A DNA stretch of 28,866 nucleotides. Source: a virus. The stretch spans positions 1-28,866 of the IMG/VR virus record IMGVR_UViG_3300042878_001149; one strand, given 5' to 3'. This document shows positions 1 through 28,866 of this stretch, piece after piece (position 1 is the stretch's first letter; each line of letters begins with the position of its first letter). The position numbers and the translations under genes are program-made. The notes under the pieces are model-generated. The model did not search any database and had not been told where the DNA came from. It worked only from the letters and a program-made list of their open reading frames with translations.

Positions 1-1
1 G

Positions 2-433
2 CATTTAATTGAGAAGGTCAGGCAGCTGCAAGAAAATGTGTTGCCAGTGGTGGCAGGGTTGGCAGTGACTGAACTGATTCTGAACGATCCGCCACCACCA
101 GCGCGTGGCAGTGCACCAGGGTTTGTGAGTGACAAACAGCGCAAATTTGTTATGGCAGGGTATCGAAAAGGCACCATACAGATACCGTATGTACGCGGCC
201 GTGGTGCAGGCAAATCACAGAAGCTGAATAGAAGCTACCTAGTACTACGCGGCACCATTGCAGAGTCACAAGTAGTAAGCACTGCCAGCTATGCACAGTA
301 CGTGGTAGGCAATAAGCAGGCCCCAATACATCAGGGCCGTTGGCTGACCACTGACGAAATAGCCAAACGTATAGAGGATAGTGGCAAAATCAAATCAGTG
401 ATAGAGCAGGCCGTAAAAGACGCATTTTCATAA
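2..433 (+). CDS. Virion morphogenesis protein, HK97 gp10-like (5'-partial)
   Basis: The frame is open from the first full codon at position 2, so the gene starts upstream of the window. The GTG at 38 is internal: the homologous gene at 28458 shows about 12 codons missing before position 2. Visible product is 143 residues, basic, with a PPPP run, a conserved central block (GYRKGTIQIPYVRGRGAGKS) and a C-terminal pattern of YAQYVVGNKQAPIHQGRW followed by a helical end. Small size, the YA..V..G....P pattern and position between portal and capsid genes resemble HK97 gp10-like neck or tail-completion proteins. That family call is inferred from context and weak motifs. The copy at 28458 is about 95% identical in protein but only about 87% in DNA over the shared part. 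Confidence 0.6.
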   Translation, partial: HLIEKVRQLQENVLPVVAGLAVTELILNDPPPPARGSAPGFVSDKQRKFVMAGYRKGTIQIPYVRGRGAGKSQKLNRSYLVLRGTIAESQVVSTASYAQYVVGNKQAPIHQGRWLTTDEIAKRIEDSGKIKSVIEQAVKDAFS

Positions 434-457: not shown

Positions 458-541
458 ATGATAGGCATGGAACGGGTAGGGTGGCGATGCTGGCAGGGAT
501 TGGGTGCAATCCATTATGAAAGAGAATGCAATGGAAGTTAA
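458..541 (+). CDS. Possible 27-residue leader peptide
   Basis: An ATG at 458 follows AAAGGA at a 7-base spacing, the best ribosome site between the gp10-like gene and the next long frame. It encodes 27 residues (begins MIGMERVGW) and stops at 541, just inside the next gene. It may only serve to deliver ribosomes to the next start, which has a weak site of its own. No homology is recognised. It could equally be chance. Confidence 0.25.
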   Translation: MIGMERVGWRCWQGLGAIHYERECNGS

Positions 542-1322
542 ATCGGTGCGTGATGTAGAGGTTACGTTTAAGACAGAAGACTCGCAATTTTATATAAAAG
601 ACGATAAAGGCGAATATTACATCTCTGATGACAATATGGGCGATTTTTTGCGCACACTTCTATTTATGATGGGGTTTAACAATGCAGATATGGAGAACTT
701 TTTGAAACATAGCACCATGGAAGTGAAGGCAGGCAGCAGGCACAGTGCAGCAGATATGAAAATCATACGTATGGCCCGCAAGGCATCGCAATCTATTGCA
801 GAATATATGGAGCAATTAGGCGATGATATGCAAGACGATGATACCGAAACCAAATCTATGCATGATATGGGCGATGAATTCAACACACGCCAGCGTATGA
901 TTGTGTCTGCACTTGTAGAAGTGACACACGAGGCAGGCAAGTTTGATACATCAGCTGGTGCCAATGGCGCACACTATATACCTGCAGCACAAAATACATT
1001 CATGGCTAAGGGCATTTGCTGCCAGCACTGCTATTTTTACCAGCCTGATTATCAGTGTGCCATTGTTGATGCAATCATCGATCCAATGGCCGTGTGTAAA
1101 CTTTGGGTAATTCCACAATCAGAGATTATGGAAGCAATGCCAGAATTAGATGTAATTACCGTGGTGGAAACGGTAGAGCCAATGGAAGTAGACGCTTCCG
1201 AATATGCAGAACCTATGGAAGGCGATGCTGATGAGTCTGATAGTACAGCCGTCATTCGCACTGCTATAGCGTCAGAAGCAGCAAAGAATTTTGTACGCCA
1301 GCTGATTGGAATGAATCAATGA
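504..1322 (+). CDS. Cysteine-cluster head-region protein, unknown function
   Basis: The frame opens with GTG at 504. ATG at 516 or 531 is as likely as the true start, the latter preceded by AAGAGA. The product has up to 272 residues. The middle (about residues 90-115) is acidic and rich in Asp and Met. At about residues 168-200 lies a cysteine cluster: CCQHC, then a Cys ten residues on, then VCKLW. This spacing resembles small Fe-S (HiPIP-like) or zinc modules seen in some phage head-gene proteins. The C-terminus is again very acidic, with a helical end. It overlaps the protease/capsid gene by four bases. Acidic, helical content next to the protease could fit a scaffold-related or minor head role, but this is inference. 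Confidence 0.75.
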   Translation: MQSIMKENAMEVKSVRDVEVTFKTEDSQFYIKDDKGEYYISDDNMGDFLRTLLFMMGFNNADMENFLKHSTMEVKAGSRHSAADMKIIRMARKASQSIAEYMEQLGDDMQDDDTETKSMHDMGDEFNTRQRMIVSALVEVTHEAGKFDTSAGANGAHYIPAAQNTFMAKGICCQHCYFYQPDYQCAIVDAIIDPMAVCKLWVIPQSEIMEAMPELDVITVVETVEPMEVDASEYAEPMEGDADESDSTAVIRTAIASEAAKNFVRQLIGMNQ

Positions 1323-2875
1323 TGTATGCAGTAAAACTTGTATCTGATTACGTGGTACGTGGTCGTGGCGTGGTGTTTGGTGGCAAAGATTTGACGGGTG
1401 ATAGATTCACCAAATCAACAGACTTTGGCGACACACGAACGTTTCTTGGCATGCCCGTGTACTACGATCACGGCCTAAGTAATTTGCAGTCACAAATTGG
1501 TACCGTCAAGATGTGGCAGCCTGATGATGAAGGCATTGATGTTGAAATTGAAATTGACAAACGCCACAAATATGCACAGCAGGTGATGGCACTCGTAAAA
1601 CGCGGTGTGCTAGGATTATCTACAGGTGCACTATCACATTTGGTGGTCCGTGATGGTGGCGAATTGAAACGATGGATTGTTGGGGAGATTAGTTTAACAC
1701 CTACACCAGCAGAACCACGAACCATGGCTATTTCTGATATGAAGGCAGTGCCACAGGCTGGCAACAGCGGCCCTGCAAGTAACAGTAGCAATATACACAC
1801 ATTTACATCAAAGGAATTAACCCCAATGTCAGACCAATTGATTAAAGATGCAGTAAAAGCCGCCATCGAAGAAATGGCAGGCGAACCTGTACGCGGTGGC
1901 GTTATCGCAGGCAATGCGCCAGCCACCAAGAAGCTCACCACTATGGGCAACAGCAATGATCAAATGCAAGCCCTCAAACACTGGATGCGTACTGGCGATG
2001 AAATTGCAGCGAAGGCCGTATTAGTCGAAGGCACCAATGCAAATGGTGGTTTCTTAGTACCGGAAACCTATGCACAGCAAATCATTGATAAGCGTGATGA
2101 AACGTGGATTGGTGCCAAGCTGCCAATGCAACGCTACACCACGCAATCTGACATTTTCAACATTGCTGCACAAAATGAGAAATCAGATTTTGCATTCGTG
2201 GCTGAATCTGGTGCGTACAATCAAGATGAGCCTACATTTTCAGGTGTGGCCATTACCTTGTACACGGCATCATTGGGTATGTTGATTTCAAACCAATTGC
2301 TTCGTGACCAAGCTATGGATCTTGATGGATTTGTTGCACGTGAAGTAGGGCGCGCGTATGCACGTCACTTGAATAATTTCATGTTGGTTGGTACGGGATC
2401 AAGCCAACCATATGGCATCATTCCACGTGCCACGGTAAATACCGAAACGCTGGCCAGCACCACGGGTGTTGATGCAGCGGATATTATCAACATAGTGCAC
2501 AAGTTGCCAAGCTGGTATGCAGATGATAGTGCCAGTGTTGGTTGGGTAATGCGTAACACCACGCTTGGAGCTATTCGCGCACTCACTGGTAACTTCTTTT
2601 CATTCCAAGCCACGCCACAAGGCGGCATTGATAATCTGTATGGAAAACCTGTTGCTGTTTCGGATAAGATTGCAGCCATGGCCGCCAGTGCCAAATCTAT
2701 TCTGTTTGGTAACTTCAATTACTATGCATATGTGGAAAACTTGAATCTGGAAATCAGCCGCAATCCATACCTGTACCAGGCGAATTACCAAACGGCCATT
2801 TTCTGTACTGCACGCTGGGGTGGCGATGTGACGCAGGCTGATGCATTCGTGCTGGGTAGCAATCCTGCTTCATAG
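1319..2875 (+). CDS. Prohead protease-major capsid protein fusion (HK97 fold)
   Basis: One uninterrupted frame of 518 residues holds two normally separate proteins. Residues 1-150 match the S78 prohead protease family: H51 in YYDHG, S101 in GLSTGA and E123 in GEISLTPTPAEPRT fit the expected catalytic residues. A Ser/Asn-rich linker (about 145-168) leads to M170. From there a helical segment like an HK97 delta domain precedes the capsid body (GGFLVPETYAQQI, then SDFAFVAESGAY and VGTGSSQPYGI). The product should assemble the shell, and the protease should trim it during maturation. AAAGGA at 1810-1815 stands 10 bases before the ATG of M170 (1826), so a separate 349-residue capsid protein is probably also made. 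Start at 1319 overlaps the previous stop (ATGA). Confidence 0.95.
   Translation: MMYAVKLVSDYVVRGRGVVFGGKDLTGDRFTKSTDFGDTRTFLGMPVYYDHGLSNLQSQIGTVKMWQPDDEGIDVEIEIDKRHKYAQQVMALVKRGVLGLSTGALSHLVVRDGGELKRWIVGEISLTPTPAEPRTMAISDMKAVPQAGNSGPASNSSNIHTFTSKELTPMSDQLIKDAVKAAIEEMAGEPVRGGVIAGNAPATKKLTTMGNSNDQMQALKHWMRTGDEIAAKAVLVEGTNANGGFLVPETYAQQIIDKRDETWIGAKLPMQRYTTQSDIFNIAAQNEKSDFAFVAESGAYNQDEPTFSGVAITLYTASLGMLISNQLLRDQAMDLDGFVAREVGRAYARHLNNFMLVGTGSSQPYGIIPRATVNTETLASTTGVDAADIINIVHKLPSWYADDSASVGWVMRNTTLGAIRALTGNFFSFQATPQGGIDNLYGKPVAVSDKIAAMAASAKSILFGNFNYYAYVENLNLEISRNPYLYQANYQTAIFCTARWGGDVTQADAFVLGSNPAS
1810..1828 (+). promoter_or_regulatory. Internal ribosome site for a separate major capsid protein
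   Basis: AAAGGA (1810-1815), ten bases, then an in-frame ATG at 1826 (M170 of the fusion). The sequence from AAGGA through TTAACCCC to ATG repeats the leader style found before 2888, 3104, 4169 and 7848. That argues it is a working start giving a 349-residue capsid protein in excess over the protease fusion. Confidence 0.7.
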
Positions 2876-2887
2876 GAGTAAACCCAC

Positions 2888-3097
2888 ATGCGTGTAAAGC
2901 TACACAACAGCCTTGCACGAACGGTGGGTGATCGCATGGTAGTACACACTGGTGGTGATGTTATCGACGTCACCACCAGTGAAGGCACCAGGCTGATTGC
3001 TACCAATCGTGCCACGTTAGTACCAGACGACGTGCCAGCCATCGATGTACCACAAGAGCAGGCACCAAAACGTGTGCGACGTCTGCCAAAGGAATAA
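2888..3097 (+). CDS. Small head-region protein, unknown
   Basis: Sixty-nine residues, preceded by AGGAG nine bases before the ATG, a strong leader shared with other structural genes, so high expression is likely. The sequence reads as a small beta barrel: alternating Val/Ile/Thr strands with VGDRMVVHTGGDVIDV and TNRATLV. It ends in a charged tail (PKRVRRLPKE). No family is recognised. Its place between the capsid protein and the head-tail connector suits a decoration, cement or connector-associated protein, which is inference only. Confidence 0.75.
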   Translation: MRVKLHNSLARTVGDRMVVHTGGDVIDVTTSEGTRLIATNRATLVPDDVPAIDVPQEQAPKRVRRLPKE

Positions 3098-3103
3098 ACC
3101 ACT

Positions 3104-3700
3104 ATGGCATATATAACTGCAGCAGACTTACGATCATACATTGGGGCCACCAGTAGCAGTGATGATACCCAATTAGGATTCGCTGCCACGCGTGCACAGT
3201 CAATGATCGAAACATACACCAATCGTATTTTTGAATGCCCTGCAGATACCACACGGTACTATAATGCACTTGATTTTCGGTATGGTGGAAACATTGATGC
3301 ATTCAATAACACACTGCAATTGGATTTTGATTTGTGCCAGCTTACGAGTATTTTGAATGGCAATGGTCAAGCGATACCAACAAACGTGGTAGTACTATTG
3401 CCAGCAAATTACACGCCAGCATACGCAATCAAGATACAAATGAACACCAGCTACATTTGGACCTATACAGGCACACCAGATGTGGCAATTCAAATTGTAG
3501 GACGGTTTGCCTACTCGATCACGCCACCATCTGATATTGTGGCAGCGTGTTTGCGTCTAGGCAGTTTCATTTATCGTGCACGCGAAGGCACACCTGATAG
3601 TGATAGAGCAATTTTATCAGCAGATGGCGTTATTCTGCAGGCACCACGAATACCCACAGACGTGCAGCAGATGTTGGAACCCTACAGGAAGCGTAGCTAA
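3104..3700 (+). CDS. Head-tail connector (gp6-like adaptor)
   Basis: This 198-residue product begins MAYITAADLRSYIG, followed by D(T)QLGFAATRAQSMIETYTNR, the helical N-terminal pattern of gp6-like head-tail connectors that form a ring under the portal. A beta-rich middle (about 45-130) is followed by helices ending PTDVQQMLEPYRK, also usual in the family. AAGGA plus TAAACCACT precedes the ATG. Its stop overlaps the next start (TAATG). Position after the capsid gene supports the call. Confidence 0.8.
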   Translation: MAYITAADLRSYIGATSSSDDTQLGFAATRAQSMIETYTNRIFECPADTTRYYNALDFRYGGNIDAFNNTLQLDFDLCQLTSILNGNGQAIPTNVVVLLPANYTPAYAIKIQMNTSYIWTYTGTPDVAIQIVGRFAYSITPPSDIVAACLRLGSFIYRAREGTPDSDRAILSADGVILQAPRIPTDVQQMLEPYRKRS

Positions 3701-4168: not shown

Positions 4169-4615
4169 ATGGCACAAACCACAGGTGCAATGTCAGGATC
4201 AGCAGCTACCATCAGCTACCAATCTGGTGGCACTGGTACATACACGGATATTTCAGGAAGCAGCCAATCAGTAGACGTGGTAACGCTTACCAAAATGACG
4301 GGTGAAGCATACACGTTTGATGGTAGCTATGCAGTGTTGACGGTTGGCAAGAACGAACCATCAGAAGTAGTAGTAAATGTGTTGTACACCGATACCACTA
4401 CAGAAGCGTATCAAACCATGCTTACTGCATTTGAGCAAGGCACACTAATTTCGCTCAAATGGGTGCCAGGTGGTGTCACTGCTGGTGCAGATACCTACAC
4501 CACGAGTGCTGGCCAGATTACTGCTATTGATTTGCCTGCCATCGATGCATCAAGTGCAGGCCCAATCATGGCATCATTCACGCTCCGGTGTGCGAGTATT
4601 ACCCACACCACCTAA
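4169..4615 (+). CDS. Major tail protein (tail tube subunit)
   Basis: This 148-residue product is almost wholly beta: Gly/Thr/Ser-rich strands, no cysteine until the C-terminus, and the segments AYTFDGSYAVLTVGKNEP and VVVNVLYTDTTTEAYQTML, which look like a tube-forming beta sandwich with one helix. AAGGAG lies nine bases before the ATG, among the strongest sites in the genome, as expected for an abundant subunit. It sits directly before the tail chaperone pair and tape measure. An intergenic hairpin follows it. Confidence 0.8.
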   Translation: MAQTTGAMSGSAATISYQSGGTGTYTDISGSSQSVDVVTLTKMTGEAYTFDGSYAVLTVGKNEPSEVVVNVLYTDTTTEAYQTMLTAFEQGTLISLKWVPGGVTAGADTYTTSAGQITAIDLPAIDASSAGPIMASFTLRCASITHTT

Positions 4616-4631
4616 TTGGATTATGCACAGG

Positions 4632-4660
4632 TTGCGTGGTTGGCAGTGCTGGCCACGCAA
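4632..4660 (+). terminator. Hairpin after the major tail gene
   Basis: TTGCGTGG (4632-4639) and CCACGCAA (4653-4660) form a perfect 8-bp stem with a 13-base loop. No U-run follows, so it is not a standard intrinsic terminator. It may stabilise the upstream mRNA end or reduce transcription into the chaperone genes, which need fewer copies. Confidence 0.45.
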
Positions 4661-4683
4661 TACTACTATAGGAACAACACACG

Positions 4684-4899
4684 ATGTACATTATTGATTC
4701 TACAAAGTTAACTATTCGCGATGTGGCAAACCTTGTGAAGGCTGGCCAATCCAACAATTTAGATGCACTGCTACCAATCATGAATAAGTGTGTGCAAGTA
4801 GATGATGGGAGATTGGCAGAAGATTTGCCTGCAAACCATTTGGCGCAAATCATCAGTGCAATTGTTAGTCGTGTATCAGGTGACACAAACCCAAAATAG
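4684..4899 (+). CDS. Tail assembly chaperone, short form (gpG-like)
   Basis: This 71-residue, mostly helical product begins MYIIDSTKLTIRDVANLVKAGQ. It lies between the major tail protein and the tape measure, the fixed place of the G/GT tail chaperones that coat the tape measure before tail assembly. Its last sense codons (CCA AAA) form part of a CCCAAAA slippery heptamer right before the TAG stop. A -1 shift continues into the frame of the next gene. AGGAACAAC precedes the start. Confidence 0.75.
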   Translation: MYIIDSTKLTIRDVANLVKAGQSNNLDALLPIMNKCVQVDDGRLAEDLPANHLAQIISAIVSRVSGDTNPK

Positions 4900-4947
4900 C
4901 AATGGCATTGCGTGCACACCTATGGACAAAAGCACCAATGCCTATTG
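4890..4947 (+). other. Programmed -1 ribosomal frameshift signal
   Basis: CCCAAAA at 4890-4896 is read C CCA AAA in the zero frame, matching the X XXY YYZ rule, and the next codon is the TAG stop (4897-4899). A hairpin starts seven bases downstream: GGCATTG (4904-4910) pairs with CAATGCC (4936-4942). Beyond a one-base bulge the stem extends through CAAT (4900-4903) and ATTG (4944-4947). Slipping yields a 134-residue fusion of the two chaperone frames, as in the lambda G-T pair. Confidence 0.8.
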
Positions 4948-5087
4948 AATACTTGGAATTGGTATTGTGTCGTGATATATACCACTGTACACCAGCCAAT
5001 TTGCCAGACTGGCAGACCATATCAGAACATCTGGCACTGATGGCAATTGAAGCAGAAGTGAATGAACACAAGGCCAAACGCAAATGA
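4902..5087 (+). CDS. Tail assembly chaperone, frameshift extension (gpT-like)
   Basis: The frame from ATG 4902 gives 61 residues, but it is also open upstream through the slippery heptamer at 4890-4896. It is probably made mainly as the C-terminal 63 residues of a 134-residue fusion with the preceding frame. It is helical, with a basic end (NEHKAKRK), and includes a PANLPDWQTISEHLALMAIE segment. No ribosome site stands before the ATG, which supports expression by frameshifting. It ends with an ATGA overlap with the tape measure gene, whose product it should bind. Confidence 0.75.
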   Translation: MALRAHLWTKAPMPIEYLELVLCRDIYHCTPANLPDWQTISEHLALMAIEAEVNEHKAKRK

Positions 5088-6940
5088 GTGATACCACCGT
5101 AATGATTCGTTTTCTTGGTGAAGACGATGTAACACCAGTGGCGGAAAACGTCACCAACAGTGTAGAAAATGTTGGTGGTGCAGCCAAAACAGCAGGCAGT
5201 GGATTCAGTGCCATGCAATCAATTGCCACTGGTGCATTTCAGGCCATTGGCAGTGCAGCCACCAACCTGGCAGGGGCCGCATTATCCAAGGTTGGTGATT
5301 TCATATCAGGAAGCATTCAGGAAGCATCAGAGTGGAATTCTGTTATTGCACAAACTGAAGCAGTAGTGAAATCCACAGGCATGGCGGCTGGCCTGACTAC
5401 GCAACAGATGGCAGATATGGCTGGTGCCATGAGTGCCAGCAGTGGTACCAGCATTTTTGCGGATGATGCAATTCTTGGTGCACAAAATGTGTTGGCCACA
5501 TTTACGCAAATCAAAGGCACAAATTTTGGCGATGCTACACAATCCATTTTGGATATTAGCCAAGCTATGGGTACTGATTTGCAATCATCTGCACTGCAAG
5601 TGGGCAAGGCCCTGAACGATCCTGTAGCAGGCATTGGGGCATTGTCGCGTGTGGGTGTGTCATTTTCTGAAAATCAAAAGAAGATGATCGAAGCGATGGT
5701 AGAAACGGGCGATGTGGCTGGCGCACAGCAAATCATTCTTGCAGAACTAAATAAAGAATTTGGTGGCAGTGCAGCGGCCGCGGTTGATACCTATGCAGGC
5801 CAGCAGGCATTGGTGGCTGCACAATTTGCGGATATTCAGCAGACACTAGGAGAGGCATTACTACCTGTACTGGTACGATTTGGTACATATGCCAGTGAAG
5901 TGCTGGTGCCAATTGTTGGTGATTTGGTCACGCAATTTTCAAATTTCATTAGCAGTGTTGACTGGCCAGGCATTATATCTGCCATCGATGAATTGTATTT
6001 ATCCTCTGATGCATTTGTATCTGGCATTGATTGGCAAGGCACATTGGCATCAATACGTGCAGGGTTTAATTCATTTCTGGTAGCAATTCAGCCAATCACT
6101 ACTGCCATTGCGAATCTGTATGCAGTGGCAAAACCTGCATTCACTGCACTATACAATGCAATCACCACACAACTGGCATCACCACAAACGCAAGGCTATA
6201 TGCAAAATATTGTCACCATATTTCAGTTACTAGGAGATATTCTGATTGGTGTAGTGTCACTGGCAATTAACGTGGTAGTCGTACAGGTAAAATCACTTAT
6301 GAGTGCATTTCAGTTTTTATGGCCATACATTCAAATTGTGCTAAATGGTTTTATGGCATTGATTGCACCATTCCAAACACTGATAATTGGTGCACTGACT
6401 GCTATCAGCCAATTGCTAAAAGGTGATTTTGCAGGTGCATGGCTGACGATTCAAACGGCCATTACTACATTTATTACTACTGCATTAATTGCCATGACCA
6501 CATTTGCAAATGATCTTATTAGTAAACTCAATACCATGGTGGCGGGCCTTGCATCGTCTGCAATGCAGGTTGGCCAAAGTATTGCAAATGGTATTGCCAA
6601 AGGCATTAGTAATGGTGTAGCTTCCATCACCAATGCCGCCAGAGCCGCTGCACAGTCTGCACTTAATGCGGCCATGGCACTTCTTGGTATTAAATCGCCA
6701 TCAACGGTATTTGCAAATCTGGTAGGTAAACCAATATCGCAGGGCATGGCGGCTGGCATCATGGCAGGTTTGCCAGACGTGCAAAACGCAATGAATGCAA
6801 CACTTGGCAGTGGCGTGAATTCAGCACGGGCCACCGTGCAGAATTACTACCAGTTATCTGCCACGTATAATACACAACAGAGTGAGTCAAGTATCATGGC
6901 TGATTTCAATGCCATGCAAATTCTAGCAGGTGGTATATAG
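5084..6940 (+). CDS. Tape measure protein
   Basis: This 618-residue product sets tail length. It is Ala/Gly/Gln-rich and largely helical, with the family-typical stretch EFGGSAAAAVDTYAGQQAL and then TLGEALLPVL around residues 224-265. Hydrophobic segments follow at about 375-480 (for example ILIGVVSLAINVVVVQV), consistent with membrane-interacting parts. Near the C-terminus KSPSTVFANLVGKPISQGMAAGI is typical of tape measures. At about 0.15 nm per residue it predicts a tail near 90 nm. It overlaps the chaperone gene by four bases. Confidence 0.92.
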   Translation: MSDTTVMIRFLGEDDVTPVAENVTNSVENVGGAAKTAGSGFSAMQSIATGAFQAIGSAATNLAGAALSKVGDFISGSIQEASEWNSVIAQTEAVVKSTGMAAGLTTQQMADMAGAMSASSGTSIFADDAILGAQNVLATFTQIKGTNFGDATQSILDISQAMGTDLQSSALQVGKALNDPVAGIGALSRVGVSFSENQKKMIEAMVETGDVAGAQQIILAELNKEFGGSAAAAVDTYAGQQALVAAQFADIQQTLGEALLPVLVRFGTYASEVLVPIVGDLVTQFSNFISSVDWPGIISAIDELYLSSDAFVSGIDWQGTLASIRAGFNSFLVAIQPITTAIANLYAVAKPAFTALYNAITTQLASPQTQGYMQNIVTIFQLLGDILIGVVSLAINVVVVQVKSLMSAFQFLWPYIQIVLNGFMALIAPFQTLIIGALTAISQLLKGDFAGAWLTIQTAITTFITTALIAMTTFANDLISKLNTMVAGLASSAMQVGQSIANGIAKGISNGVASITNAARAAAQSALNAAMALLGIKSPSTVFANLVGKPISQGMAAGIMAGLPDVQNAMNATLGSGVNSARATVQNYYQLSATYNTQQSESSIMADFNAMQILAGGI

Positions 6941-19347: not shown

Positions 19348-19706
19348 TTACACTACTCATTTACCTGACCTGCACACTTGGCACCTGCACTACCATGCCA
19401 CTAATAGTTACACCAGAAGCGGCCGCCATTGCCACATGTGAAAGTGGTGACACAGTCACCTATGGCAGTTATGAATTGCACGCCAGGAGTGCCACAAATG
19501 ATGGTGGCATATGGCAATTCAATGATAGTACCTATATGTGGCTGAATGGGTATGATCATGCAGAATTGGATTTGCCACGCAATCAATATGACACGTTTGT
19601 ATATTTATGGGATGGCGGCCGTGGCTGGCGTCATTGGAGCAGTAGCAAATCATGCTGGGATAAGTGGCTAGTAATCGATGCAGATGATAAGGCGGTGATG
19701 AAGTGA
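19344..19706 (+). CDS. Exported lytic transglycosylase (Rpf/lysozyme-like)
   Basis: ATG 19344 gives 120 residues. A hydrophobic N-terminus (MITLLIYLTCTLGTC) looks like a signal or lipoprotein-type peptide. The mature part has IATCESGDT, GGIWQFNDSTYMW and a terminal GGRGWRHWSSSKSCW. This is the order seen in Rpf-like and related lysozyme folds: catalytic Glu in CESG, G-WQF substrate loop and an end with paired cysteines. It should cut the glycan strands of peptidoglycan from outside the membrane. It is the second wall enzyme besides the amidase at 22793. Confidence 0.75.
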   Translation: MITLLIYLTCTLGTCTTMPLIVTPEAAAIATCESGDTVTYGSYELHARSATNDGGIWQFNDSTYMWLNGYDHAELDLPRNQYDTFVYLWDGGRGWRHWSSSKSCWDKWLVIDADDKAVMK

Positions 19707-20239
19707 CACAAGAAACACTAAAGATTCTCGATCAGTTAGTAGTGTTCACTGCAAAAAAAGAACATCCTACTGATTTGTTCTATGCAGAAATTACGCTAGA
19801 CGATAAGACACATTTTATGATGTACAGGCGACAGCCAGTGCAAATTTGGATTGATGGCCACGCAATGCCTACAAAATGGCCTCCTTACATCGAATGGGAT
19901 TTTAGCAGGCATTTAGTGGAATTGACCACACTTACATCATGGCAATTATTGCAGCGTCAATGGCTGCCGAAACAGAATCAAATCACTGATGATTTTGAAC
20001 AGGATTATGGATTGTTGAAGGTGGCGGGTTGTGATTTTGGGATTAACTATACAAAGGATCGTAGCTGCTGGCGTTACCTATTTTATGAAGATTATGGTGA
20101 AATTTATGATTCGGTATCATATCGAGCACCACAATCAGATTGGTATGCAAGTGATGATCCACCATCATTAGAGCATTTCATCAAATGGGTAATGAGCACT
20201 GTTGCATATGAACAGCAATTTGGAGAAAAGGATTTATGA
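19703..20239 (+). CDS. Paralogue family member A, unknown
   Basis: This 178-residue acidic, aromatic-rich product shares a plan with those at 20236 and 21545. All have an N-terminal beta part (here ETLKILDQLVVFT...WIDG), an LTSWQ motif at about 75, DRSCWRY in the second half, and a C-terminal HFIKWVMSTVAYE. No known domain is recognised. ATGA overlaps join it to both neighbours. Base composition here is lower in GC than in the replication genes. Confidence 0.7.
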   Translation: MTQETLKILDQLVVFTAKKEHPTDLFYAEITLDDKTHFMMYRRQPVQIWIDGHAMPTKWPPYIEWDFSRHLVELTTLTSWQLLQRQWLPKQNQITDDFEQDYGLLKVAGCDFGINYTKDRSCWRYLFYEDYGEIYDSVSYRAPQSDWYASDDPPSLEHFIKWVMSTVAYEQQFGEKDL

Positions 20240-20760
20240 ACGAATTTGGATTCGAGCCAATGCCAGAACGCGTGCACACAGAAACATTGCGTTTGTTTGG
20301 CCAAACTGTGCAATTCACCAAACATGGTGATATGTGCAATGGTATTTTTCAATTCAACGGCCTAACGCATTTGTTGTCATGGGAAACCATTGGCTATAAT
20401 CGTGCACTGTACATCGATGGCGTGCAAATAAAAACGAGTGTTGAAGGCGGCATAACAGGTATTCGTTTTATGCAGGCACTGGCCAGCCTGCACAAGCTGA
20501 CTGCATGGCAGCAATGCGAATTGTTTCATGAACGGTTTGAAACCTACACCACAGAGCATATTACCTATGAAGTGGCTGGCATTGAATTCTATGCCGAAAC
20601 GTCAATAGATGATACCGCGTGGCGATATGTGACAGAAGATGATGATCGATGCTGGCACATATCACGATGGTTTAATGGCATGGAATTCAAACCATGCCTG
20701 CATCATTTTCGGCATTGGATTAATTCGACAATAGAGTATAAGGAAAATTACGATGACTAA
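20236..20760 (+). CDS. Paralogue family member B, unknown
   Basis: This 174-residue product resembles the preceding gene's product: ETLRLFGQTVQFTK near the start, LYIDG, LTAWQ at about 97, DDTAWRY in the second half and HFRHWINSTIEY at the end. The repeated architecture implies tandem duplication and divergence. The conserved Trp and His suggest a structural core or binding pocket, not an obvious catalytic site. It overlaps both neighbours. Confidence 0.7.
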   Translation: MNEFGFEPMPERVHTETLRLFGQTVQFTKHGDMCNGIFQFNGLTHLLSWETIGYNRALYIDGVQIKTSVEGGITGIRFMQALASLHKLTAWQQCELFHERFETYTTEHITYEVAGIEFYAETSIDDTAWRYVTEDDDRCWHISRWFNGMEFKPCLHHFRHWINSTIEYKENYDD

Positions 20761-20962
20761 TGAACAATTGCGGATTCAGGCCGCCATTGCCAGATCAGAA
20801 GCACTACTAGACAGCCTTAAAGGAACCAAGGCACGATTAATCGAGTGCATCACCATGGGTGATGATGTGACGACAGACTATAGCGAAATCAGCGCAATGA
20901 TTGTACAGTGCACTGCAATCATTGAACATCTGCACGTGATGCAGGATAAGGCAGCACAATGA
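20753..20962 (+). CDS. Small helical protein, unknown
   Basis: This 69-residue product is predicted as two long helices (NEQLRIQAAIARSEALLDSL and YSEISAMIVQCTAIIEHLHV), probably a helical hairpin or coiled coil. Its last 24 bases (20939-20962, encoding MQDKAAQ) recur at the end of the next gene with three changes. Function unknown. Confidence 0.65.
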   Translation: MTNEQLRIQAAIARSEALLDSLKGTKARLIECITMGDDVTTDYSEISAMIVQCTAIIEHLHVMQDKAAQ

Positions 20963-21414
20963 ACAACCGAATCGAGAACCCACTAATTAGCAAGTTTTTA
21001 CAAGACCGCGCGTCAATACCGCTTCAAGTATTGACCATTCCTCATTGGGAATTCAACACCACATTCTTGCCACATGTGTGTACAGATTGGGAAATTTGTG
21101 CATATACCTATGGGAGTGATAGCACATACATTGCACAAATTGAACTGTATTATGGTTTGCTCAAAATGCCATGGGGCACACATCGTATTACCGCGGCGCT
21201 TCCATTAATAGGCAGCAACGGTTTATATATAGGCGATTCAATGCGTGACGTGCTATATCGCATTGAGCTACTATGGCAGACTGCAAAAAAAATGCCAATT
21301 GGATCTATGGTGGCGAATCAGCATATTGAAATCATGATAGACAATGAAAGTTTGTTTATGGATTTATGGCAAATGCATGATTCTAATACAATGCAGGATA
21401 AGGCGACGCAATGA
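20959..21414 (+). CDS. Unknown protein with shared C-terminal tail
   Basis: This 151-residue, aromatic-rich alpha/beta product includes IPHWEFNTTFLPHVC, IAQIELYYGLLKMPWG and VLYRIELLWQT. It is not clearly part of the TAWQ family, although length and position are similar. It ends MQDKATQ, encoded by a near copy (21391-21414) of the preceding gene's 3' end. That suggests insertion by recombination at short repeats. No function is recognised. Confidence 0.65.
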   Translation: MNNRIENPLISKFLQDRASIPLQVLTIPHWEFNTTFLPHVCTDWEICAYTYGSDSTYIAQIELYYGLLKMPWGTHRITAALPLIGSNGLYIGDSMRDVLYRIELLWQTAKKMPIGSMVANQHIEIMIDNESLFMDLWQMHDSNTMQDKATQ

Positions 21415-21545
21415 AACGACGCACGGCACTGTATTACAAGGTTAGATTATCAATTTGGGTAAGACGCATTACAAAGTATTGGAAGCGAGTGCCAATAGCA
21501 AAAACTATGCACGATTTCGCAATAAATAGCAAAGGCAAGGTGTGA
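21411..21545 (+). CDS. Small basic protein (44 residues), unknown
   Basis: ATG 21411 overlaps the previous stop (ATGA), and the stop at 21545 overlaps the next ATG (TGATG), which argues that the frame is real. The product is very basic (MKRRTALYYKVRLSIWVRR, then KYWKRV) with an amphipathic look. It could bind nucleic acid or membranes; no family is recognised. Confidence 0.5.
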   Translation: MKRRTALYYKVRLSIWVRRITKYWKRVPIAKTMHDFAINSKGKV

Positions 21546-22000
21546 TGGAAACATATTTAATCCTAGGCAATATCCTAATTATGGAATCAGACGGTACTGG
21601 TAATGAGGTAGGCACTGTGACCGTGAATGGCATTGTGTACCACGTGATAAAAGACGAACGATGGAAGGTGTCTGTTAATCACAAAAAGGTTGCGGAGGAT
21701 TACGGGTATTTCAATTTCAACGTCGAAGCGCACATCATGAATCATCAAAAAATGACGGCATGGCAAAAAACGCGGCACGGTTTTGAACATTTCAAAACTA
21801 CCAAGGACAACACGACGGTATACATCATTGCAGATGTACCATTATTTGTATACCGTGCAGATGATGCGACGTGCTGGCGATACTACACGGGAGATGATGC
21901 CGAAATATGGCAGCCCTGGTCACCATGGTACCCAGCGGAGATTCAACCAAGCGCAGACCATTTCACGCAGTGGGTAATTTCATCAATCGAGGTGAAGTAG
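21545..22000 (+). CDS. Paralogue family member C, unknown
   Basis: This 151-residue product keeps the family marks: MTAWQ at about 80, DDATCWRY in the second half and HFTQWVISSIEV at the very end. The N-terminal part (VGTVTVNGIVYHV) is beta-rich but diverged. It is separated from members A and B by three other small genes. ATG 21545 is preferred over GTG 21542. No function is recognised. Confidence 0.68.
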   Translation: METYLILGNILIMESDGTGNEVGTVTVNGIVYHVIKDERWKVSVNHKKVAEDYGYFNFNVEAHIMNHQKMTAWQKTRHGFEHFKTTKDNTTVYIIADVPLFVYRADDATCWRYYTGDDAEIWQPWSPWYPAEIQPSADHFTQWVISSIEVK

Positions 22001-25334: not shown

Positions 25335-28241
25335 ATGACGTCATACAAGGCGATCGAGGCCATACCAGGTTGGTACAACGTTGCCAAGAAGGCTGGCGAA
25401 TTATACGGAACCATCGATGCATACGAAAAGGTGCCTATGCTATATCGCGCAATTAACTTGCGTAGTGATGCACTAGGAACCGTGCCATTCGTATTAGAAC
25501 GCAATGATGTGCCTGTAGATTATCCATTCGTTACGCCAATGGATATGCTAATCCAAGAAACAGAACGTGCACTGCTGTTAACTGGCAATGCGTTTTGGCT
25601 GCGTCTATACCGCGGCCGTGTACTGTATGGGTTTCAATTCCTAAATCCTAAATCAGTTACTGTGGAATACAAGGCTGAATATCAAACAGCAGATAACATA
25701 CTATCAGGTTTACGATTTAGCCAAAACATCAATGGCACCATATACGGCCCGTGGACCATTGACCAAATTGTGTACTGGCGCGAACCATCAATTCGAGATG
25801 ATGTATACGGTGGCGTGGCACCTGCCAGCGTGGCACTGCAATCTGCACAGCTGGCATATTACTTGGAACGATTCACCAGTGCATTTTTTGAACATGGTGC
25901 ACAGCCAGCCGTAATCATGAGTCTAGACAAATCCATTACGCCACCAGAATATGAACGCCTTAAATCTGACTGGCGATCACGGGTTGAGAATGTTTCAAAC
26001 GCATTCAAAACATTCTTTTTTAGGGGTGAAGTTAAAACCCAAATTCTTACCTTCCCGTTAAAAGATATGGAACTTGTACCACTGCAAGAACGCGTCACCA
26101 CCAACATTACTACCACGTTTGGTGTGCCACGAACCATGCTAGAAGCAAGTGCTGCAAACTATGCCACGGCTGATAGTGATCGCCAATCATTTTGGCGAGA
26201 AACGATTGTGCCGCGGCTGGCATTCTATCAACGCGTGCTAAATCAGCAGGTGTTTGCACCACTCAAATACAAGATGCATTTCACACCAGAAGTACTAGAC
26301 GTATTTCAGACTGATGAAGCGGCCCGCGCTGGCAGTCTACTGCAATTGGTACAGGCTGGTGTGCCATTGAGTAGTGCAATGAAGATTCTTGGCTATAACA
26401 ACATTGACGAAGCAATAGGAATGCCATCAACCATCACTGGCCCTGACGTTACAGGAGTCAATGTGGATAGTGGTACAGAAATTGTGGATGAATCACTAAA
26501 CGATATGAAGGCAGTGCAGGCCAGCAGGTTGGCTGATTTGGAAGCATACGAACGCAAGGCACTGAAACGCTACAAGACCAAAGGCAATGCGGCTGCCACG
26601 TTTGAATCAGATGTATTGCCACGCTATATGACTGATTACATTCATGCAGAACTGAAAAGCGTAAAAAAAAAGAGTGATATAGCACATGTATTTCACTTCA
26701 TAAAGGCACTTACATTGGCCGATCTCACACCAGCTGAACGCAAGGTGTACAACGCCATTGCAAGTAAGCTGGCAACGCGGAGTGATAAGAATGCAGAAGC
26801 AATTGCACGTGGTGACTACACAGCCATTGACACTGATTTGCGTAATCTACTCACTGACAATGTTGCACAGCTGGTATTAGATGCAGGTGCACAACGCATT
26901 CGTACCATACCTGGCATGGCTGATGTTGTAGGTGATGACGTTATAAAACAAGGCATTGCCAATCATGCCAATACCTACATTGATTCGTATTGGAACCCCT
27001 TCCTGCAAGATTTATCAGCCACGGAGCAGAGTTATATTAGCAGCGTTATTGCCAATGCACAAACCACGGTTGGTATTACTGTTGATGATATTAAAAACCA
27101 ATTAGCCATGTTTGGTGATTTGCGCGCACAACGCATTGCATTCACTGAACCCACACGAGCTGCAGCACAGCAAACGTTTGCCATTCAGAATCAGGCACTG
27201 CAGGCTGGCATCAATACCACTATGGTATGGATTGCAGAAAATGATAGTGAAGTATGCAATTTGTGCGAACCACTAAACACACTGACACAAGACGAATGGC
27301 CACCAGAAGCAACAGATGGGCCACCACGCCACGTAAATTGCAGGTGTGCTATTGGATTGCAGCTGGTGAAATCGCCAATTGTAGAGCCTGAAGCAGGCAC
27401 CATCGATGTAGTAGCAGATCCAAACGCCACGCCACCACCAGTGCCATTATTACAGCGGAGTGCTGCTGATATTGCAGACTATATTATTAGTGAAGTGCCT
27501 GCAATAGCAAAGGCAGAATATGACACACTACAGCAATTAAAAAGTGAAGCTGATGCATTATACATACAGGCCACTACATCAACAGATTTACTTACGCGTC
27601 TAACTACAACAAAAGAATTTAATGCAAAACTTGTTGAAATTAAAAAACAACAAGACAAATATAAAAAGGCACAAATAAAAGGATATGAAACAGTACTGCC
27701 ACAATTACAATCAACCACGCCACAGCAGGTTGTATTAAGTTTCAATGCAAAATTCACTGCTGCACAGCAGGCCGAAATTGCTAAATATATTGAGTTAACC
27801 ATAGGAATGGCTAAACAACGCGCAGATGGAACGCCATTAACCATACGCGTTGCGCCAGAAACCAACCGTAATAATAATGGATCATACTCACCAAACACGC
27901 AAACATTGTATGTAAGAGGTAATGGACCAGTAGGCACTGTTGTACATGAAACCATACATGCAATGCAAGACCAATTGCAATATGGTGTATCTGAAACCAA
28001 TGTATTTGGCGATGCACGTACAGCTGGATTAACGCCAGATACAAAAAATGGATACCTTACATATAGTGGATTAACCGATAACCCATATGCATTTAGAATT
28101 TATAGTCAATCTAGCAGTCAGCCAATGGGTAAATATTGCGAAATACTTACCACTACATTGCAAAATATTGCAGGTTGGGGAACAATCAACGATCGTGGAA
28201 TTATTGAGCTGGCCACGCAAATCATAAAGGATAATAACTAA
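25335..28241 (+). CDS. Portal-MuF head protein-zincin-like protease fusion
   Basis: One 968-residue frame has three parts. Residues 1-390 are an HK97-type portal (LYRAINLRSDALGTVPF, LLLTGNAFW, FGVPRTMLEASAANYATADS). Residues about 400-675 are an SPP1 gp7/MuF-type head morphogenesis region, ending in its Cys/His signature (CNLCEPL at 641, then HVNCRC near 666). Residues about 690-968 form an AT-rich-coded domain with a charged coiled coil (about 740-790), then HETIH at 871-875 and a possible third zinc ligand E936 in CEILTTTLQ. Portals form the DNA entry ring, and MuF proteins are packaged inside heads and ejected. The end therefore resembles an injected metalloprotease. No frameshift separates the parts. 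Next gene overlaps by one base. Confidence 0.92.
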   Translation: MTSYKAIEAIPGWYNVAKKAGELYGTIDAYEKVPMLYRAINLRSDALGTVPFVLERNDVPVDYPFVTPMDMLIQETERALLLTGNAFWLRLYRGRVLYGFQFLNPKSVTVEYKAEYQTADNILSGLRFSQNINGTIYGPWTIDQIVYWREPSIRDDVYGGVAPASVALQSAQLAYYLERFTSAFFEHGAQPAVIMSLDKSITPPEYERLKSDWRSRVENVSNAFKTFFFRGEVKTQILTFPLKDMELVPLQERVTTNITTTFGVPRTMLEASAANYATADSDRQSFWRETIVPRLAFYQRVLNQQVFAPLKYKMHFTPEVLDVFQTDEAARAGSLLQLVQAGVPLSSAMKILGYNNIDEAIGMPSTITGPDVTGVNVDSGTEIVDESLNDMKAVQASRLADLEAYERKALKRYKTKGNAAATFESDVLPRYMTDYIHAELKSVKKKSDIAHVFHFIKALTLADLTPAERKVYNAIASKLATRSDKNAEAIARGDYTAIDTDLRNLLTDNVAQLVLDAGAQRIRTIPGMADVVGDDVIKQGIANHANTYIDSYWNPFLQDLSATEQSYISSVIANAQTTVGITVDDIKNQLAMFGDLRAQRIAFTEPTRAAAQQTFAIQNQALQAGINTTMVWIAENDSEVCNLCEPLNTLTQDEWPPEATDGPPRHVNCRCAIGLQLVKSPIVEPEAGTIDVVADPNATPPPVPLLQRSAADIADYIISEVPAIAKAEYDTLQQLKSEADALYIQATTSTDLLTRLTTTKEFNAKLVEIKKQQDKYKKAQIKGYETVLPQLQSTTPQQVVLSFNAKFTAAQQAEIAKYIELTIGMAKQRADGTPLTIRVAPETNRNNNGSYSPNTQTLYVRGNGPVGTVVHETIHAMQDQLQYGVSETNVFGDARTAGLTPDTKNGYLTYSGLTDNPYAFRIYSQSSSQPMGKYCEILTTTLQNIAGWGTINDRGIIELATQIIKDNN

Positions 28242-28468
28242 TGAATGTGAATCTAATAATTACAGGCAATGGCGAAAACTATAGTTATGATAGCAATACT
28301 GATACTATGATTGGCAATGGTGAATACTTGGAGATGATGAATACTATGATTGAAATTGCAGATTATGGCGTTAATCCATACAAACAAATTGCAGAATTAA
28401 TGCAATCACTTGAATACAAAGTGCAATATAATTTCACACCCGATAAAGGCAAATTAGATGGCATTTAG
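28241..28468 (+). CDS. Small acidic protein, candidate partner/immunity of the protease domain
   Basis: ATG 28241 shares one base with the fusion gene's stop, with AAAGGA ten bases upstream. The product has 75 residues and is acidic. It begins with strands (NVNLIITGNGENYSYD) and continues with a helix (GEYLEMMNTMIEIADYG, YKQIAELMQSLEYK). GC is near 33%, as low as the preceding protease-domain segment, and it rises sharply in the next gene. Coupling to a putative toxin domain and shared composition suggest a cognate inhibitor. That is inference; no family is recognised. Confidence 0.65.
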   Translation: MNVNLIITGNGENYSYDSNTDTMIGNGEYLEMMNTMIEIADYGVNPYKQIAELMQSLEYKVQYNFTPDKGKLDGI

Positions 28469-28866
28469 CATTGAAGTGCAAAACGCAACACTGCACCTAA
28501 TCGAGAAATGCAGGCAGCTACAGGAAGTAGTGCTGCCTGTAGTGGCTGGCCTTGCAGTCACTGAATTAATCAAGAACGATCCACCACCACCAGCGCGTGG
28601 CAGTGCACCAGGGTTTGTCAGTGATAGGCAGCGCAAATTTGTTATGGCAGGATATCGAAAAGGCACCATACAAATACCGTATGTACGCGGCCGTGGTGCA
28701 GGCAAATCACAGAAACTGAATAGAAGTTATCTGGTACTACGTGGCACCATTGCAGAATCACAGGTAGTAAGCACTGCGAGCTATGCACAGTATGTGGTGG
28801 GGAATAAGCAGGCACCAATACATCAGGGTCGTTGGTTGACCACTGATGATATTGCCAAACGTATGG
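28458..28866 (+). CDS. Virion morphogenesis protein, HK97 gp10-like (3'-partial)
   Basis: ATG 28458, with AAAGG upstream, opens a frame that runs off the window end (136 codons visible). It supplies the N-terminus missing from the gene at position 2 (MAFSIEVQNATL). Over the shared 373 bases there are 49 base differences, nearly all silent, no indels, and six amino-acid changes in 124. GC returns to the genome's usual level at once after the AT-rich gene it overlaps by 11 bases. Role as for the first copy. Confidence 0.65.
   Translation, partial: MAFSIEVQNATLHLIEKCRQLQEVVLPVVAGLAVTELIKNDPPPPARGSAPGFVSDRQRKFVMAGYRKGTIQIPYVRGRGAGKSQKLNRSYLVLRGTIAESQVVSTASYAQYVVGNKQAPIHQGRWLTTDDIAKRM

Follow-up and report, generated by a model that had tools for sequence, protein, structure and literature searches.

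An imperfect end overlap in a tailed-phage record points to a map of about 28.5 kb closed between two strains

When the same gene lies, in two diverged versions, at both ends of a phage record, does the phage carry two copies of it, or was a circular map read beyond its own starting point? The question arises in a window of 28,866 bases that constitutes one entire IMG/VR record. It represents a tailed phage with all genes in one orientation. From the left, a variable gene is followed by a capsid protein with a protease-like region and by head-tail and tail genes, including that for the tape measure protein. Onward lie genes for a primase-helicase-like protein, ThyX, an amidase and the two terminase subunits, and the right side encodes a portal-MuF fusion of 968 aa. 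The gene at both ends is called gene X here; since the record comprises exactly 28,866 bases, both copies run off the contig ends. The features concerned are as follows.

1..433, plus strand: gene X, left allele (open frame 2-433; 5' end lost at the contig end; 143 of about 155 codons left)
504..1322, plus strand: variable gene separating gene X from the capsid gene, differing in length and content among relatives; follows gene X once the map is closed
1319..2875, plus strand: major capsid protein with N-terminal protease-like region (PF05065, E 3e-43; PHROG major head protein and head maturation protease)
25335..28241, plus strand: portal-MuF fusion, 968 aa (PF04860, E 2e-36; PF04233, E 1e-7); precedes gene X once the map is closed
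28458..28866, plus strand: gene X, right allele (open frame 28458-28865, ATG at 28458; 3' end lost at the contig end)
28493..28866, plus strand: overlap segment matching 1-374 (ungapped self-alignment; closure here gives a 28,492-bp map)

Realignment confirmed what a first-pass annotation had read from the letters, namely a gap-free match of 1-374 to 28493-28866 with 49 differences and six residue changes. The two 374-nt segments are 86.9% identical (BLAST E-value of the left versus the right copy 5.8e-131). The runner-up ungapped match for 1-374 within the window reached 35.6% (mean 25.3%, sd 2.4%), which rules out chance. In the common open frame 42 codons differ, 36 of them silently, and the six amino-acid changes are V/C, N/V, L/K, K/R, E/D and I/M. 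Mismatches at codon positions 1, 2 and 3 numbered 8, 4 and 37, and dN was 0.038 versus a dS of 0.62. On these figures the annotation was also right that the ends do not differ by sequencing error: they are real alleles under purifying selection. The mismatches are concentrated at the start of the overlap, with 25 of the 49 within its first 91 bases and the first at base 4. The longest exact run measures 41 nt, so that no long assembler k-mer is common to both end copies.

We then asked how relatives are organised across the same stretch. A scan of IMG/VR for gene X yielded 16 loci. In each of the 14 close relatives gene X is single-copy and forms one continuous piece with the portal-MuF gene and, in contigs that extend far enough, with the capsid side, in the order portal, gene X, capsid. 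In these relatives the sequence of the window's right end runs straight into that of its left end. Because a single gene X lies between the portal-MuF and capsid genes in relatives, the map of the window closes to a 28,492-bp circle. Complete gene X comprised 155 aa in relatives where it could be read; the full-length versions start like the right copy and, in most relatives, end like the left copy. Among more distant relatives, 11 had a match, which was one full-length gene X in ten of them and one partial match at a contig end in the eleventh. Two copies were found in none of 15 relatives at the DNA level and in none of the 11 further ones at the protein level.

End overlaps also occur in six other long relatives, elsewhere on the map. 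Two of them (3300032285_001890 and 3300032245_001150) have exact overlaps of 123 bp, which we take to be the assembler's k-mer length. The overlaps of the remaining four, listed here, are imperfect, spanning 91-99% identity and 208 bp to about 1.5 kb.

G016: 3300043429_000632
G017: 3300046820_001817
G018: 3300046779_001453
G003: 3300047561_001022

The last of these, with 27,659 bp, shows an end-to-end self-overlap of 679 alignment columns (91.5%) at window positions 4428-5101. The window crosses 4428-5101 once and continuously, and 3300047561_001022 has just one gene X where it runs across the seam of the window. The other three imperfect overlaps measure 330 bp (94.2%), 208 bp (98.6%) and, as two adjacent stretches, about 1.5 kb in sum (91.5% and 96.4%). 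Seam sites vary and include the capsid gene, tail genes before TMP, the adaptor gene, the TerS/amidase interval and the ThyX side; one further seam lies in an unmapped region with no matches to the window proteins tested. In total, five of the 11 long clade records examined (the window and ten relatives) had imperfect end overlaps, and the four relatives are probably near-complete genomes closed between strains.

As relatives cross the seam with one gene X and close at other places on the map, we infer that the end overlap is almost certainly the assembly seam of a circular or circularly permuted map of about 28.5 kb that was read into a sister strain, and not a gene duplication. Of the two readings offered by the first-pass annotation, the joining of two strains in a circular or permuted genome of some 28.5 kb is thus strongly supported, by single-copy continuity and by the other seams, while a duplication of gene X around the toxin-like cassette is not supported. 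Inferred for this particular sample are its seam, from the relatives, and also the route of the assembler and the mixing of strains. The template would have been a circular or circularly permuted, concatemer-derived tailed-phage genome of about 28,492 bp, in a metagenome with several strains up to about 19% apart in gene X. The assembler may have started from an arbitrary position within gene X, gone round the circle once and, on reaching gene X again, continued in another strain's allele. Closure would have gone unrecognised because the alleles have no long exact k-mer in common, leaving a 374-bp imperfect overlap. Each phage would then carry one gene X.

Circular templates are known to break at a random location and to leave a k-mer-long repeat at the ends of the contig (CheckV paper, PMC8116208). 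Like the direct-terminal-repeat (DTR) contigs described there, the window would derive from a circular or concatemeric template that was opened arbitrarily, so that its ends repeat each other. Unlike in those contigs, its repeat is imperfect (86.9%), as expected if the ends come from different strains; with a mismatch already at base 4, an exact-repeat test (at least 20 bp) misses the overlap. Within-population variation is one cause of contig breaks (COBRA paper, PMC10914622), and strain variation appears to govern the end positions of the window as it does in the breaks simulated in that study. However, the window passes its own start by 374 bp rather than ending in a shared k-mer. The record can therefore be read as a near-complete circular-map phage genome that was filed as an open contig, and closure gives 28,492 bp. 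Imperfect end overlaps can escape exact-repeat completeness tests, and testing for end overlaps with some tolerance would yield additional complete genomes and keep genes from being falsely reported as duplicated. Apart from such overlooked closures the finding is ordinary.

How the two alleles relate to the rest of the population was assessed over the 374 nt in 16 sequences (120 pairs); only identities were used, because the gene X allele tree has few supported forks. Pairwise identity ranged from 80.7 to 100% with a median of 88.0%, and the 86.9% between left and right is unremarkable, being typical of any two members of the population. The right allele is 93.3% identical to that of the nearest relative, L015, and 90.1% to that of L011, while no relative exceeds 88.5% to the left allele. 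Left and right copies are not each other's nearest relatives. Along the window, L015 is 92-94% identical from 25700 to the right end (cassette apart), 85-88% at 1-2000 and 98% at 4700-5080; at 1600-3700, L006 and others are closer to the window than L015. The population is mosaic. The 30-mers tested, taken from where the two alleles diverge, had no exact match in any other IMG/VR record. Megablast against annotated phages gave no match to the window, and identity of the capsid protein to annotated phages was below 31% among the matches listed.

Could both alleles nevertheless stand on one molecule? The record might capture one junction within a genuine head-to-tail array of related phages, two in number, either as tandem prophages or as a mixed concatemer that arose by recombination of co-infecting strains. 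Concatemers and tandem prophages exist, and a mosaic population in which the nearest relative shifts along the window would suit such an origin. However, the imperfect overlaps at unrelated sites in four relatives fit general closure better than repeated independent arrays, and when some 85,000 species genomes of bacteria and archaea were scanned for gene X and the capsid protein by pattern-based searches of limited reach, no relative came up. We consider such an array very improbable.

Further readings involve the region beside the right copy of gene X, where two features form a cassette (window 27385-28468).

From about 27385, plus strand: metallopeptidase-like C-terminal extension of portal-MuF (285 aa, HETIHAMQ), common to L016 and diverged in L003
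28241..28468, plus strand: 75-aa ORF, candidate immunity gene; a homologous 76-aa ORF follows the same extension in L016

In L003 the diverged extension is followed by an unrelated 91-aa ORF, so that in all three phages the putative toxin gene is directly followed by an ORF of less than 150 aa. Extension and small ORF are absent in L004, L006, L007, L010-L013 and L015, in which the protein ends shortly past the MuF domain and gene X lies directly next. The cassette thus shows a presence/absence polymorphism, as a clean insertion between the MuF domain and gene X. The MuF domain scored 32.7 bits against a cut-off of 29.6 (PF04233). Tox-MPTase4 in the extension stayed below its curated cut-off (14.0 versus 25 bits, E 0.048), the HExxH motif is retained in the three extension homologues, and a structure model of the extension had a mean pLDDT of 51, too weak for interpretation. 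The arrangement resembles the MuF polymorphic toxins of phages (PMC5576092) in its MuF domain, variable C-terminal extension, metallopeptidase-like motif and small following ORF. It differs from them in that a single protein of the window combines portal and MuF and the toxin domain is only weakly recognised.

It is conceivable, though highly unlikely, that the seam marks a real recombination site of co-infecting strains, at which mixed concatemers with both alleles would help to exchange the MuF toxin-immunity cassette. An extremely unlikely reading is that gene X is truly duplicated, with one copy on either side of the toxin cassette or of the remaining genome, and that cassettes are exchanged by recombination at these copies, as the first-pass annotation had proposed. 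The record does hold two open, selected copies, and the cassette beside the right one varies among relatives. Yet gene X is single-copy with or without the cassette, including in the carriers L016 and L003, and none of the relatives surveyed at either level has two copies. The neighbours of the cassette are the portal-MuF gene and, across from it, a single gene X; the right copy alone adjoins it in the window, and the left copy lies about 25 kb away. Both copies are, moreover, truncated exactly at the contig ends and are not mutual nearest relatives, and relatives show similar imperfect end overlaps in other genes. A duplication confined to this strain would formally fit as well, though it is very improbable.

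Tailed-phage genomes are often terminally redundant, but both termini of a packaged molecule are cut from replicas of a single genome and are identical, whereas those of the window differ in a pattern of purifying selection and the relatives open at many different genes; physical terminal redundancy of a packaged linear molecule was rejected on the 13% divergence between the ends, which contradicts it except where two strains had contributed to the concatemer, and its probability is negligible.

Closure between strains being the preferred reading, what might the gene at the seam encode? Searches of Pfam, PHROG and PDB gave no significant match for gene X, and neither sequence nor structure comparison matched it significantly to the tail completion or Neck1 family. 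Two sub-threshold similarities, to phrog_5 (E 0.035, in one of 16 members) and to the SaPI1 neck structure 9mu2_P (E 0.27, probability 0.47), hint that gene X might encode a structural protein of the tail-completion or neck type.

In some relatives, a ferritin/Dps-like domain (PF00210) forms part of the variable gene that follows gene X and precedes the capsid gene. Matches were found at 3654-4979 of L010 and 9258-10394 of L016 (E 5.8e-16 and 3.8e-12) and also in L007 and L012; unlike the corresponding gene of these relatives, ORF 504-1322 of the window had no PF00210 match. A Dps-like domain within a gene of the phage head region looks unusual.

Elsewhere in the window, the ORFs at 19703, 20236 and 21542 are adjacent, are 23-27% identical and have W-Q, WRY and HF..W..S motifs in common. 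Judged by these motifs, they look like diverged paralogues. The gene content of the segment in which they lie (window 19703-22000) differs among relatives.
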